Virus record (IMG/VR): IMGVR_UViG_3300046504_000089
Coordinates: 1-20,829 of that record
Reading direction: 5' to 3' (one strand)
DNA from: a virus
DNA: 20,829 bases
Shown: piece by piece, positions 1,970-20,829 of the stretch
Layout: each line of letters starts with the position of its first letter
How positions within the stretch are numbered: position 1 is the stretch's first letter
Position numbers and translations under genes: made by a program
The notes under the pieces: model-generated
The model's input: only the letters and a program-made list of their open reading frames with translations
The model's database searches: none
What the model was told of the DNA's origin: nothing

Positions 1970-3027
1970 CGAAGCATCTCCGGCATCTCGTCCCAGACTC
2001 TTCCGTCGAGCAGTCTGCCGGCGGATTTCTTGCCGACGCGGTAGATGTATGCGTCTCCCATGGGTTGACCGGGTGTGCGGTCATCGGGAGGGTCGATAAG
2101 TGTGGCGAGACTGTAGTGCTGCTTTTGCCCTGTCGGCAACCATTCGCCCCACTGCTTGAAGAAGAACGGCACGCCGGCCGCCTGGCACTGGTCCCGTAAT
2201 CCCCTGGGCCAGTCGGGGTGCATCGGCCTCGCCCCCGGGCCGGATTCGCCGCCACAGATAACCCAGTGGATACCACGCAAGCCGTCGAACTGGCCATTAA
2301 ACCCAATCTTGAGCGGCTCCCATTTAGCCCAACGATGAGAGATCGGCCCCAGTAGCGGTTCCTCGCTCACAAACCTCATAGCGGCCGGGGTCTGAAGCAG
2401 GTCCGGTATCCGCTCGTCGGCCCGCTCCTGGTCCTCTGCCGAGACTCCTAGACCGAGGTTGGGGAGGGGCCAAGCGTTAATCTTCCATGATTGCCCCCAC
2501 GCAATTCGGCGGGCATCAAAAACGTCTTCGGATGGTAGAGTGAATGTCAGTGCGGACAGGCTCTTTGATGCTGCTCCTACCATTACGGGTCGATAGTCCG
2601 AATGTCCGAAGTATTCGCGCATCCTCTTCGCCCGCTTGGTGAGCCACAAGTGCCGATGATGAGGCGTGAGAGCGCACGTCGCCGCACAGCGGTCGATCCA
2701 CTCGTCCGGTACCCAGTCTCCAAACAAGTCTGTACAGTCGGCCCAAAAGAAGGTCGATGGCTTCCGGCGCCGGAGGACCTGCTGTAGCACGTTCTCATCG
2801 AAGAATAGTTCGCCGCGGCTCTTGTTTTCGGCTGTGAATTCCAAACCCGAGAGGTACGGTCCCTTCTGCATTCTGGAGGCGTAGCAGTTTTTGCAGCCGG
2901 GCGAGAGCTTCTCGCAGTAGTGGCCCACCTTCCCGGTTTGCTTGTTTCGGAACCGGATCGGATTCACGGTGAATCCCTGGGAGCCTTCCCCTGGGTTGCG
3001 AACCCATTCTATGGAGGTTCGGGTCAT
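1966..3027 (-). CDS. Phage Gp37/Gp68 family protein (DUF5131)
   Basis: The product is about 353 residues and matches the DUF5131 / phage Gp37-Gp68 family. Evidence includes three clustered cysteines near the N-terminus (C38, C45, C48 in LSPGCKNCYA), FFWADCTDLFGDWVPDEW, HLWLTKRAKRM, the LGLGVSAEDQ segment, RFVSEEPLLGPI, WVICGGESGPGARPM and GVPFFFKQWGEW. These are the conserved blocks of the family. Members are often linked with a three-cysteine-motif partner protein, which is not present here; the biochemical activity is not firmly known, and radical-SAM-like folds have been suggested. I choose the ATG at 3,027 (ATGA overlap with the upstream gene, AAAGGA upstream). Two in-frame starts up to 3,054 are possible. 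Confidence 0.93.
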   Translation of the reverse strand: MTRTSIEWVRNPGEGSQGFTVNPIRFRNKQTGKVGHYCEKLSPGCKNCYASRMQKGPYLSGLEFTAENKSRGELFFDENVLQQVLRRRKPSTFFWADCTDLFGDWVPDEWIDRCAATCALTPHHRHLWLTKRAKRMREYFGHSDYRPVMVGAASKSLSALTFTLPSEDVFDARRIAWGQSWKINAWPLPNLGLGVSAEDQERADERIPDLLQTPAAMRFVSEEPLLGPISHRWAKWEPLKIGFNGQFDGLRGIHWVICGGESGPGARPMHPDWPRGLRDQCQAAGVPFFFKQWGEWLPTGQKQHYSLATLIDPPDDRTPGQPMGDAYIYRVGKKSAGRLLDGRVWDEMPEMLR

Positions 3028-3416
3028 GTACTGAGTCCTTTCCATTTCCGCCACTGCTCCAAAACCTTCTCGCGGGCCGCCGGCGACAAGCCTTCCAGAC
3101 AGCCGAAGGTCAGGCGGTCGAACAGGTGCTCTTTCAGTTCATCCCAGATCGTTCCGAATATCCAACTTCCATCGCATGAGAACTTCGCGCGGATCTCGAC
3201 GCACAGTAGGCAGGTTTTGTACGTGGCCAGAGTCTCTTCCCACTTAGCCGACGTGCGCTCATAGTTATCGCCGGGCTGGATCGCGTTGCCGCATTCTGTA
3301 CACTGGTGCGTCTTGCGGGCTTTCGGAAGCGTGGTCTCGTAGAACTCGGCTTCATTGTCGTCGTTCCGATTGAGCACGCACGTATCCGAGCAGGGGCCGG
3401 CCGCCAGATCAGACAT
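3024..3416 (-). CDS. Phage zinc-binding protein
   Basis: This 130-residue protein begins MSDLAAGPC. Its central part has CTECGNAIQPGDNYER (about residues 39-54), then TYKTCLLCVEIRAKF with a second cysteine pair, and an FGTIWDEL segment. The two cysteine pairs spaced by about 30 residues indicate a zinc ribbon or treble clef; I recall many short phage proteins with the same HxCxECGxxIxxGxxYE pattern, with no assigned function. The start overlaps the upstream stop by 8 nt (ATGTCTGA) and the stop shares ATGA with the DUF5131 gene. The first 25 bases of the gene are nearly identical to those of the gene starting at 3,687. Confidence 0.82.
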   Translation of the reverse strand: MSDLAAGPCSDTCVLNRNDDNEAEFYETTLPKARKTHQCTECGNAIQPGDNYERTSAKWEETLATYKTCLLCVEIRAKFSCDGSWIFGTIWDELKEHLFDRLTFGCLEGLSPAAREKVLEQWRKWKGLST

Positions 3417-3426
3417 TAGGGACTCC
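3392..3426. repeat. Gene-junction repeat, copy 1 (copy 2 at 3,663-3,697)
   Basis: Positions 3,392-3,426 and 3,663-3,697 match at 33 of 35 bases. Each copy spans the 3' end of one gene (ending GVPNV then stop) and the 5' start of the next (MSDLAAGP), including the ATGTCTGA overlap. The flanking gene bodies differ, so the repeat marks a seam where small genes have been duplicated or exchanged. Confidence 0.85.
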
Positions 3427-3687
3427 TCTCTCTGCGGCTATCATCAGTGCTTGCGCCAGTGAGCCGGTTACGTGCAACTGAGCGACCGCGTCCGCTACTG
3501 CCACGGGCCACATGATGTCTTCTTTGGGGCGTGAGTGGCAGAGTTGTTCGGCTCGCGCTTGGTCCACCTTCCAGGCGTCCCGAAGGTCCGACGTGTAGCC
3601 GTGTCCGTCTGGGCGCCACCATCGCAGGCAGTTTCCGCAGAAGCCTACGTTCTGGATGTAATAGGGGCCGGCCGCCAGGTCAGACAT
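3409..3687 (-). CDS. Small cysteine-containing phage protein (internal start in the fused frame)
   Basis: Starting at the ATG at 3,687 this gene gives 92 residues beginning MSDLAAGPYY. It contains FCGNCLRWWRPDG, a cysteine pair resembling half of a zinc site, and ends in a helical alanine-rich segment closing with GVPNV. A GGGAGTCCCC stretch precedes the ATG, the same context as the downstream gene starting at 3,416. It is likely to have been an independent gene, coupled by the 8-nt overlap to its neighbours, before the tandem duplication upstream put it in frame with the preceding gene. No function known. Confidence 0.68.
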   Translation of the reverse strand: MSDLAAGPYYIQNVGFCGNCLRWWRPDGHGYTSDLRDAWKVDQARAEQLCHSRPKEDIMWPVAVADAVAQLHVTGSLAQALMIAAERGVPNV

Positions 3688-8828: not shown

Positions 8829-9097
8829 GTCTTTTTCTTTGGATTACGGTGAAAGCCTGGCCGGCGTCTGTATGCGTAATAGGGTTCGTAAGCCTTTTCG
8901 GCTGCTTTAATATCTGCGACTGCCTTTGGAAGCACATCGTTTGCAAAGTCAAGGATCGCAGGCATGTCTTCTTCGTTGTACCCATATCCGCGCTTGAGGC
9001 TTTCAGCGATGCCGTAGCGGAGGATGTCCAGCCAGATTTGCGCCCGCGTCCTATTTTCGAGCGCCTCTGTTCGCTTGGGATCTTCTTTACGCTTCAT
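8825..9097 (-). CDS. Hypothetical charged helical protein
   Basis: The protein is 90 residues with a basic N-terminus, a long central helical stretch (FANDVLPKAVADIKAAEKAY) and a lysine-rich C-terminus (HRNPKKKT), which could favour nucleic-acid contact. AGGAGAT lies upstream at good spacing, giving an independent ribosome-binding site after a 70-nt gap. The stop overlaps the next start by ATGA. Not recognised. Confidence 0.78.
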   Translation of the reverse strand: MKRKEDPKRTEALENRTRAQIWLDILRYGIAESLKRGYGYNEEDMPAILDFANDVLPKAVADIKAAEKAYEPYYAYRRRPGFHRNPKKKT

Positions 9098-17798: not shown

Positions 17799-19079
17799 TT
17801 AGTCTGCCACAGCGGACGCGATGCTCTGCCAGTCCGCGGTAGCGTTCGCGTTGGCCACCTTCAGGTAGAGCTTCCCGATGGTTGTCACGTAGAGAGACCC
17901 GATGGCGCCCGTCAATCCTACCTCGGTCCTGACAGCATCTCGTGTGGTCTGCGTTCCGTAGTAGACGATGCCGCCGTTGGGCATGCGGGCGAATGCGTGA
18001 AATGGGTTCTTGACCCCGTTGGCGTCGAGGATGTAGTTCCAGCCGGTGTTGACTAGGGTCATTTCCTCCACGAGGTAAGCGGCGTCGGCGGGGCCAGCTA
18101 CGGAATTGTTGAGGTTGCGAACCCTGACACCCCATTCCTTGGTGGCTTTGGCCCCTTCGTTCTTAATTGAGAAGTCCGCGGCAGAGTGCTGGGTTGCGTT
18201 CACCCCGAAATTCTCGGCGTTGACCGTGATACCGTTGACGATCGGCACGGTTCCCCCGACACGATTGGCCACGCTGATGAGGTTGTCGAGCATCCCCAAC
18301 GTGCCTCCGGATCGGTTGGTAACCAGGGTGTTTATACCGCGAATAATGAAGTTGGCATCGTTGGCGGCATAGTTGGAATAGGACCCGCGAATGAGGGCGT
18401 CGTTCGAGTCGCCCGTGGCCACCGATCCAGCCGGCCGGGTCACGTTGATCCCCAGAGCGTAGGTCTTCTGCGCCGTCGTTCCCGTCATGAGCCCGCCGAT
18501 CTGGTACAGATAGCCGTAGGCGAGATTGGAGCGTACCGGCATGATGTGGAACTCTCCATTGACGGCGAAGTATGGGTAGCTGTCGTCCCGGTTGTTCACT
18601 GCGATGGACAGAAGCGCGGCCCTAGCCGTTATCGTTCCTGCCGTGGGCCAGTTGTTAGCGGCGACTACCACATTGTCCAGGTAGGTGGTTCCAGCCTGAT
18701 TGCTGGTGACGACGCAGGCTACACACGTCCCGGTTGTCGGGAACTGCTGTGTTGCCAGGCGGATCACGTCGTAGCCGGTTGCCCCGGCGGATGCCTGCCA
18801 ACTGAGCTGGACCGGGCTGGTGACCAAGGCGAGTATGCCCCTGGTACCGGTGGCGCGCGCCGGCTGTGCCATTCCAACCACCCCAATCGGGTAGCGTGCG
18901 ACCACCCAGTAGTAGATGGTCGAGGCTCCGCCGACTCCGGTAGCCGTGGCCGTGACGCCTATCGGCGCCCCTGGGGTCGGTCCTCGGAAGATAAGCTGAT
19001 CGACGATGCTGTTTTGCCCCCAGCCGGCCGTGACCGTCAAAAGGGCCAACAGGACTGCAATTGAGACTGCTCGTTTCAT
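17799..19079 (-). CDS. Exported fibre-like protein with FN3-like N-terminal domain
   Basis: The 426-residue product starts with a clear Sec signal peptide (KRAVSIAVLLALLTVTAGWGQ, cleavage near residue 22), preceded by AAGGAG. Residues about 30-140 look like a fibronectin type III-like sandwich (PGAPIGVTATATG, YYWVVARYP, VQLSWQASAGATGYDVIRL). The rest is rich in Gly, Ala, Asn and Thr with many short strands, as in adhesins or tail fibres. Two cysteines at about 124 and 127 (CVAC) sit in a loop. A signal peptide is unusual for a virion fibre; the protein may be secreted or displayed by the host cell. No C-type lectin or VR-type ending is seen, so it is not an evident DGR target. Confidence 0.78.
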   Translation of the reverse strand: MKRAVSIAVLLALLTVTAGWGQNSIVDQLIFRGPTPGAPIGVTATATGVGGASTIYYWVVARYPIGVVGMAQPARATGTRGILALVTSPVQLSWQASAGATGYDVIRLATQQFPTTGTCVACVVTSNQAGTTYLDNVVVAANNWPTAGTITARAALLSIAVNNRDDSYPYFAVNGEFHIMPVRSNLAYGYLYQIGGLMTGTTAQKTYALGINVTRPAGSVATGDSNDALIRGSYSNYAANDANFIIRGINTLVTNRSGGTLGMLDNLISVANRVGGTVPIVNGITVNAENFGVNATQHSAADFSIKNEGAKATKEWGVRVRNLNNSVAGPADAAYLVEEMTLVNTGWNYILDANGVKNPFHAFARMPNGGIVYYGTQTTRDAVRTEVGLTGAIGSLYVTTIGKLYLKVANANATADWQSIASAVAD

Positions 19080-19085
19080 GGTGTG

Positions 19086-19466
19086 CTACTCCTTTGTTGG
19101 ATTTGGCCCGTCCGTATTGGGAGCGGGGGTTGCGGGATTGGCCGGAGCCGGGGGCGCCGGTTTTGTCCACGTAAAGTCTGCGTTCAGGGTGCAGTTCTGG
19201 CAGGAGTATTGCACCTTCAGGTCTTCAATGGTTTGGTTCAACTGGGCCTCATAGGTTCTCACCTGGGCCTCGGCTTGCAACCTGGTGATGTGGGCCTGGG
19301 CCAGGGCAAGTTGGACGTTTCGTATCTGAAGCTGGTCCCGAGAGATCAGCATAGAGACGCCGGCGACGTTCACAGGCAGCGGCTCGGTTGGTGCGGTTGG
19401 CGAGTCGGCGGCAAACAGGGCGCACGCCAGAAGGGTTAGCAGGATGCTTCTGTAAAGTGTTCGCAT
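19086..19466 (-). CDS. Exported coiled-coil protein
   Basis: I prefer the ATG at 19,466, giving 126 residues with a signal peptide (RTLYRSILLTLLACALFAAD). ATG at 19,484 and GTG at 19,520 are alternatives. The mature protein has a coiled coil (LQIRNVQLALAQAHITRLQAEAQ, then VRTYEAQLNQTIEDL), a CQNC pair at about residues 90-93, and a Pro/Ala-rich tail. It is probably periplasmic. It follows the RT-linked genes and precedes the fibre-like gene by only 6 nt, suggesting the two are co-expressed. Function unknown. Confidence 0.7.
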   Translation of the reverse strand: MRTLYRSILLTLLACALFAADSPTAPTEPLPVNVAGVSMLISRDQLQIRNVQLALAQAHITRLQAEAQVRTYEAQLNQTIEDLKVQYSCQNCTLNADFTWTKPAPPAPANPATPAPNTDGPNPTKE

Positions 19467-19532
19467 GGGCCTATCGTAGCTCATTCTCTTCTTCTCATCG
19501 CGTTTTGGTACGTTTGCCACTCTTTAGTGTGC

Positions 19533-19880
19533 CTACGAGATCAACCTCTCTATCGAAGCCGGTTCGATAACATTCCCGCTCGCAACCTTTGCCTCCAACG
19601 CCTCCACGCGGGTCTTGATGGACGGCTGCGCCACCACTTCCGCTGGCTTGCCGCCCTTCTGGATCGTCTTGGTCTTCGGGTCAACCGTGTATGCCTTCTG
19701 GTTTGCTGTGAGACTCACCAGGTCCGCATCGGACAACTCTCCCACGTCGATGTAGGCGAGGCTGGACTTCTGGCCTTGCGGTGTTGCCAAATAGGCGTCC
19801 ATCTCTGCGGGGCGCAAGTCTTTGGCGATGTTTTGAATCTGCCCCTCAAAGCCTGGGTTGGTTCGGTAAATTATCAACAT
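19533..19880 (-). CDS. Small protein translationally coupled to the RT
   Basis: The ATG at 19,880 overlaps the RT stop by 7 nt (ATGTTGA) and has GGAGG upstream, giving 115 residues. The protein starts with a strand (MLIIYRTNPGF), has LRPAEMDAYLATPQGQ and IDVGELSDADLVSLTANQ blocks, and ends in a short coiled coil (IKTRVEALEAKVASG). The tight overlap predicts production tied to the RT. It is not recognisable as Avd, the usual DGR partner (a small basic helical-bundle protein), and looks more like an assembly or structural accessory. Confidence 0.78.
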   Translation of the reverse strand: MLIIYRTNPGFEGQIQNIAKDLRPAEMDAYLATPQGQKSSLAYIDVGELSDADLVSLTANQKAYTVDPKTKTIQKGGKPAEVVAQPSIKTRVEALEAKVASGNVIEPASIERLIS

Positions 19881-20829
19881 ATGAATCCTCCAAGAATCGG
19901 TTTTGCCTCGCGCCATAACGCCACGCGGAGCCGGTATGAATCGGCGTGACTAAGATGCTGAAACCAACTTCTCAGCGACTCTATAGCCTTTCCACCGGGC
20001 AACTCCTCGCGCTCCACTGCCGCCATCAAGCCGCGCATTCGCCGCCGCCCAGCCACGACGTTCGGGCGCAAAATACGCCGGTGGCCACACCAGATTTTAT
20101 GACCTAGGAACGGCACTCCGATGCGTGTGGGGAATACGCAGGTTTTGGGATTTATCACGAGGCCTATTTCCTCGATGAAGCCGCGCAGATTGTCCTCCCA
20201 GCCTTTGACGACGCTCTGTTTTGAACCCAGCAGCACCAGGTCATCCATATACCGGGCGTAGTAGCGACAGTGGAGAACGTGCTTGACGTGGTAATCGATT
20301 CGCGAGCCGATGATGTTGGCAAACCATTGGCTCGTCAAATTGCCGATAGGTAACCCGCGTGGGCCGAAACCGGCGGGGAAAGTGTCAAGGGCCGCATGGT
20401 AGCTGGTCAGAATGCGCCGGCACAACTCTAGCGTTCGGGAATCCGTAATACGCCACTCCAGCTCCCGCATCACCAAGCCGTGCGGGATCGAATCGAAGAA
20501 CTTCCGCAAGTCGAGCTTTAGAATGTAGTTTGAACCCGGCCTGCGGAGAAACTGCGTCAGGCGGTCAATGGCCTTGTGTGTGCCCTTGCCAACGCGGCAG
20601 GCGTACGTGTCGTGAATGAATGTGTTCTCAAACAGCGGAGCGATCACAGAGCAGAGCGACTGGTGGACAATCCGATCCGAGAATGGGGCGATGCGAATGA
20701 TGCGCTCTTTCGGTTCGTGAATAACCTTTTTCCGGTATGTACCGGGTTGCCACTCCATCGATTGAAGTTGGTCTCGCAAAGCGATCAGGTTCTCTCCGAG
20801 ATTGCCAGTGAATGAAATCACATCGGGTC
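19874..20829 (-). CDS. DGR-type reverse transcriptase, N-terminus cut by window edge
   Basis: The frame is open to the right edge; an internal GTG at 20,821 is not necessarily the start. Numbering from that GTG there are 315 residues. Conserved blocks are YRKKVIHEPKERIIRIAPF (30-47), RIVHQSLCSVIAPLFE, FIHDTYACRVGKGTH (68-82), motif A LKLDLRKFFDSI (D104), the DGR signature IGNLTSQ (159-165), and the catalytic YMDD (191-194). IGxxxSQ in motif 4 distinguishes DGR RTs from retron and group II enzymes. DGR RTs copy a template repeat RNA with adenine-specific errors and write it into a variable repeat. The missing N-terminus, perhaps 30-50 residues, and the template, variable repeat and accessory gene would lie to the right. 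Confidence 0.93.
   Translation of the reverse strand, partial: PDVISFTGNLGENLIALRDQLQSMEWQPGTYRKKVIHEPKERIIRIAPFSDRIVHQSLCSVIAPLFENTFIHDTYACRVGKGTHKAIDRLTQFLRRPGSNYILKLDLRKFFDSIPHGLVMRELEWRITDSRTLELCRRILTSYHAALDTFPAGFGPRGLPIGNLTSQWFANIIGSRIDYHVKHVLHCRYYARYMDDLVLLGSKQSVVKGWEDNLRGFIEEIGLVINPKTCVFPTRIGVPFLGHKIWCGHRRILRPNVVAGRRRMRGLMAAVEREELPGGKAIESLRSWFQHLSHADSYRLRVALWREAKPILGGFIC

Follow-up and report, generated by a model that had tools for sequence, protein, structure and literature searches.

What is the reverse transcriptase (RT) gene at the right edge of this viral contig, and where are the partners with which it would work? The window, i.e. the whole stretch analysed, is the entire 20,829-base record, and the right flank beyond 20,829 is outside it. 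Diversity-generating retroelements (DGRs) are phage systems that scramble chosen positions of a host-binding protein. The first-pass annotation had read the edge as a truncated DGR-type RT with IGNLTSQ and YMDD motifs. Our answer, held with high confidence, is that the contig breaks off within the RT gene of an ordinary tailed-phage DGR, and that the rest of the cassette should lie beyond 20,829. The RT features are as follows:

19874..20827, minus strand: DGR reverse transcriptase coding sequence, 5' cut by the edge, stop codon included, about 32 codons missing
20327..20347, minus strand: IGNLTSQ codons, the DGR-type [ILV]GxxxSQ motif (motif reading of the RT)
20240..20251, minus strand: YMDD codons, the catalytic motif (motif reading of the RT)

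The identity of the RT was established directly in the window. Its frame on the minus strand (20827..19874) encodes 317 aa with an open 5' end, and the alignment to the RT of contig L002 indicates that about 32 N-terminal codons are missing because the contig ends. The protein matches Pfam RVT_1 with 73 bits and PHROG 1423 'Reverse transcriptase' with an E-value of 1.8e-103. Among solved structures it is closest to chain 8ub7_A 'Reverse transcriptase' (E 3e-45), which we take to be the DGR RT of phage BPP-1, present together with its Avd partner chain, while the best group II intron RT among the solved chains only reaches 5e-19. The first-pass reading of an edge-truncated DGR-type RT was therefore confirmed by Pfam, PHROG, the solved relative and the L002 alignment.

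On the other hand, no partner was found inside the window. Both strands were scanned for repeat pairs differing almost only at A, and none was found in the window. When the L002 and L003 templates were compared to it with A as a wildcard, the window maximum was 0.51, against 0.99-1.00 for the true variable repeats (VRs); a remote VR within the window was rejected since no stretch resembles the relatives' templates. A lectin-like target was also looked for in the window and not found. The absence of a template/variable pair from the window, as claimed earlier, thus agrees with both the A-biased scan and the relatives' templates. The expected place of the template repeat (TR) and the VR, upstream of the RT, falls beyond the window edge.

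The anatomy can be read directly in relatives. A scan of IMG/VR gave 54 loci with a related RT; the window RT is 96% identical to that of L002 and 72% identical to that of L003. Upstream of the homologous RT, L002 and L003 both carry target, Avd, TR, spacer RNA and RT in that order, which is the order (target, accessory, template, RT) anticipated in the first-pass annotation. The L003 target has 707 aa, and the L002 features are as follows:

488-2344: target gene, 618 aa
2396-2770: avd
from 2764: template repeat (TR)
up to 3025, the likely RT start: spacer

The differences between TR and VR fall almost exclusively at template A: over 113 nt, 18 of the 19 mismatches in L002 (hypergeometric p 7e-13) and all 25 in L003 (hypergeometric p 8e-17), and in L071 (a genome contig; RT 58% identical to the L002 RT) 16 of 17. 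An A-only repeat pair was present on the RT strand in 48/54 IMG/VR relatives and on the opposite strand in 0/54; in the remaining six, the sequence is cut 0.1-1.1 kb upstream of the RT. The A-biased pair expected near the RT was thus found in the relatives, less than 1 kb upstream of the RT in L002 and L003. A search for more close cassette relatives through the TR/VR DNA pattern gave nine matches, two of which were the contigs of L002 and L003, and the other seven are about what chance would give (17 fixed bases, collection size). The nearest locus in the genome scan, L071, sits on a contig of low coverage from a Chloroflexi bin; the binning does not establish a host, and there was no isolate among the genome-scan loci.

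Some repeats depart from the simple layout. The 5' part of the L002 TR (2764-2800) reads CTCTGGAGCGAC, where L003 has AACTGGAACAAC and L071 has AATTGGAACAAC, and it is identical there to its own VR at 2228-2264; the L002 template has lost adenines there, perhaps through copying from VR to TR. L016 (VR near 9010 and 13910) and L022 (VR near 9003 and 13669) have two VRs for a single template; in each case the second lies some 3 kb further downstream than the RT. Also, L083 (9397/9780) and L093 (9412/9708) show the unusual layout of an A-biased pair downstream of the RT on the opposite strand.

We infer that the window phage has the same cassette as these relatives, that it is active, and that its target binds a host receptor. 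Beyond 20,829, upstream of the RT, there would be a target gene ending in a VR and then avd, followed by a TR of about 113 nt overlapping the avd end and, from there to the RT start, about 150 nt of structured spacer RNA. Reverse transcription of the template RNA by the RT with Avd would introduce random bases wherever the template has A, and the resulting cDNA would take the place of the VR at the target 3' end. The target would be an Mtd-like receptor-binding protein with a predicted C-type-lectin-like domain, and the outcome would be many ligand variants displayed across the phage population. Against this we count that no TR, VR, Avd or target lies within the window, and that the AlphaFold model of the L002 target is unusable (pLDDT 31.8 from a three-row alignment).

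The block shared with L002 and the genes around its end are as follows:

19647..20829, minus strand: block 93% identical to L002 3119-4301 (1183 shared bases; DNA comparison)
19533..19880, minus strand: post-RT gene, 115 aa, its start overlapping the RT stop (ATGTTGA)
19086..19484, minus strand: small protein with a Sec-type signal sequence (MSYDRPMRTLYRSILLTLLACALFAADS...), the next gene after the DGR block; DGR membership is not implied
17799..19079, minus strand: 426-aa protein with a Sec-type signal sequence (MKRAVSIAVLLALLTVTAGWGQNS...), no VR; DGR membership is not implied

Beyond this block and one lipoprotein region (72%), no DNA or protein likeness was detectable between the window and the 51-kb L002 contig. 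The best surviving alternative, though an unlikely one, is a DGR remnant, in which recombination brought in the RT block but no functional template or target, so that it is now idle or has its template elsewhere. A 93% block amid contigs that are otherwise almost wholly unrelated does mean that the block has moved, and the 20 kb downstream of the RT hold no template or target. However, the frame of the RT is unbroken, and by codon position (11, 7 and 43) it differs from the L002 RT mainly at third positions, as it would under selection. The last 300 bases before the edge are 97-100% identical to L002, so that the block probably continues upstream, and L002, L003 and L071 all keep the full cassette set. 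An assembly chimera, with the RT end misjoined to an unrelated phage contig, is somewhat less likely still. It would fit the way in which the L002 likeness ends near the end of the post-RT gene, fading within about 100-200 bases (~19,700-19,530), and the different contents of the remaining contigs. But the post-RT gene is recognisable over nearly its full length (76% over 126 aa), and the G+C content is even across the junction. Moreover, with no more than 93% identity over the shared part and a selection-like pattern over codon positions, a chimera would need a third, unseen phage.

Under the preferred reading of a DGR cut by the contig edge, the block would reflect exchange between phages. 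Common to L002 and L003 are the target's C-terminal parts, avd, TR and RT as well as a weak lipoprotein likeness, and the search found nothing else; the simplest reading of these comparisons is that the cassette is exchanged horizontally together with the ligand-binding end of the target. Since the window is unlike L002 outside the DGR block, its target may differ, at least at the N-terminus. The near-identity of co-occurring phages could also be why the assembly stopped at the window edge.

The post-RT gene is in the same place in L002, L003 and L071, and it is possibly translated by coupling to the RT. A general DGR role for it was rejected, because among the compared loci it has kin in the window, L002, L003 and L071 alone. 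The 426-aa protein is a possible second surface or tail protein. Elsewhere in the window, short near-identical repeats lie at the ends or starts of different genes (12247-12281/12847-12881, 5270-5313/5829-5872, 159-190/4160-4191 and 3392-3426/3663-3697) and are perhaps traces of recombination. A tRNA-Met (CAT) gene at 14174-14251 on the minus strand also has an Rfam tRNA match.

The placement of the RT was evaluated with a tree of 91 RTs, built by a quick method with SH-aLRT support only and with retrons not among them. The RTs of the window, L002, L003 and L071 were grouped with support 100, and this group falls inside a 41-RT set holding BPP-1, on a long branch, and the archaeal virus ANMV-1 (support 97). 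This DGR set, including the window RT, is apart from the group II introns. The tree check proposed earlier therefore places the RT in the DGR clade with BPP-1 and ANMV-1, not outside it. A group II intron maturase-type RT is hardly credible, as the NCBIfam TIGR04416 match (125.8 bits) is far under the model's cut-off of 300, group II controls have PQGGxxSP where the window RT has IGNLTSQ, the tree separates them, and group II intron RNA was looked for in the window with none found. The chance of a retron or DRT-type defence RT is just as negligible: the PADLOC DRT models match weakly (best RT_UG17, 84.5 bits), but the general PADLOC RT model is much better (134.7 bits) and is beaten by no specific one, the NCBIfam retron and Drt models score far under their cut-offs, and the motif, the tree (without retrons) and the cassette in relatives all indicate a DGR.

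Between the TR and the RT, the relatives point to a structured RNA. In L002 and L003 a single open frame of 436 aa takes in both TR and RT, as it would in a fusion protein. Such a fusion was rejected because the differences in the spacer are even over the codon positions (16, 11 and 12, compared to 83, 47 and 169 in the RT, where third positions dominate) and because the stretch folds with compensated pairs. The RT start is most likely at MPHTY. Across L002, L003 and L071, 13 of the 37 spacer pairs show compensatory changes in both partners, a count reached in none of 500 shuffles and in no slid structure, albeit for a structure derived from the same three sequences, which are few. The 3' hairpin of the L002 spacer matches Rfam RT-16 (RF03019) with 30.5 bits and an E-value of 0.009, below the 50-bit threshold, and the L003 spacer gave no match to RT-16; the likeness of the L002 spacer to RT-16 lies in the conserved 3' hairpin. 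For L004-L008, the spacer match is to RT-14 (RF02921). From these comparisons, the TR-RT spacer appears to be a covarying RNA related to RT-16. In BPP-1, the RT-Avd complex is recruited by the spacer, from which cDNA synthesis is also primed (PMC12875486).

The targets of the relatives are consistent with the first-pass guess of a diversified tail ligand. In both L002 and L003 the VR is at the ORF end of the target, and the targets match the Pfam family mtd_2nd ('Mtd second domain') with 30.6 and 39.5 bits, respectively (cut-off 24.6). Mtd is the tropism protein (tropism determinant) of Bordetella phage BPP-1. A lectin-like domain of the FGE-sulfatase type scores just over its cut-off in L003 (23.7 bits) and under it in L002 (19.7 bits). 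The Avds match bAvd (68.8 bits in L002 and 53.9 in L003) and PHROG 3206 'Avd protein of DGR', and the solved Bbp7/Avd 4dwl matches the relatives' Avd with an E-value of 0.003. A protein search for relatives of the L002 target returned itself alone. L003 encodes terminase, portal, protease, major head protein and tape measure, and is thus a tailed phage. Its DGR comes after the tail genes, behind a very long protein in the tail-tip position; this protein contains a carbohydrate-binding domain and has no match in PHROG. The Mtd domain together with the position downstream of the tail genes supports, though it does not prove, a receptor-binding role of the target. By eye, a stretch of about 100 residues within the lectin-like region of the L003 and L071 targets is Ig-like and is absent from L002, and a second such stretch lies further upstream in the L003 target. 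On the strand opposite to the tail genes, L003 5648-6322 (minus) encodes a protein whose N-terminal region is hydrophobic and in which HEIGHALGMGHS reads by eye as a matrixin-like metalloprotease motif.

When compared to the BPP-1 DGR (mtd, avd/bbp7, TR and brt; AY029185), L002 and L003 have the same order of target, Avd, TR, spacer (about 145 nt) and RT, with an Mtd second domain and C-terminal VR in the target and a bAvd-type accessory protein; the BPP-1 RT is 35% identical to the window RT. The differences are the target length (618 and 707 aa against 381 aa in BPP-1), the N-terminal signal sequences of the L002 and L003 targets, and the Rfam Phage_DGR (RF03022) threshold, which the BPP-1 spacer passes and the L002 and L003 spacers do not reach. 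The window itself, unlike the BPP-1 locus, has no DGR partners within it. The best match of the RT in the phage collection was the DGR of ANMV-1 (adtA; KP703175, PMC4372165) with 37.8% identity, in the same part of the tree, but ANMV-1 is a virus of archaea and its target was compared by annotation alone.

The signal sequences deserve a separate word. The N-termini of the L002 and L003 targets have a charged part, then a strongly hydrophobic stretch and a plausible cleavage site, as in a Sec-type signal sequence, and good ribosome-binding sites precede both starts. When the other viral targets found here were screened by simple hydrophobicity, nothing comparable emerged except the ambiguous L032, whose true start is uncertain, and the L071 target is without a signal-like N-terminus. 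Because the score is home-made, the positives are two related sequences, and the window's own target is unseen, we treat these signals as a lead rather than a result. Sec export of the hypervariable target in this phage group, with the ligand produced in the periplasm or presented on infected or lysogenic cells instead of being solely assembled into tails in the cytoplasm, is a doubtful but conceivable reading; it bears on this that the window phage encodes further signal-bearing proteins beside the DGR. In L087, a contig assigned to Spirochaetia, the VR (3586) falls within an ORF (2160-3650) whose N-terminal stretch, FTLIELVIVIAILAILAAVIV, is type IV pilin-like.

This locus represents one further DGR lineage, whose complete anatomy is known through its relatives. 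It is a known kind of DGR; more unusual are the shared 93% block, the signal sequences on the targets and the apparently covarying, RT-16-related spacer RNA. The DGR block is common to otherwise unrelated phages. Phage DGR proteins are described as lacking signal peptides (PMC6199706); if the signals found here act as such, they would contradict that description and raise the question of where a hypervariable phage protein is displayed.
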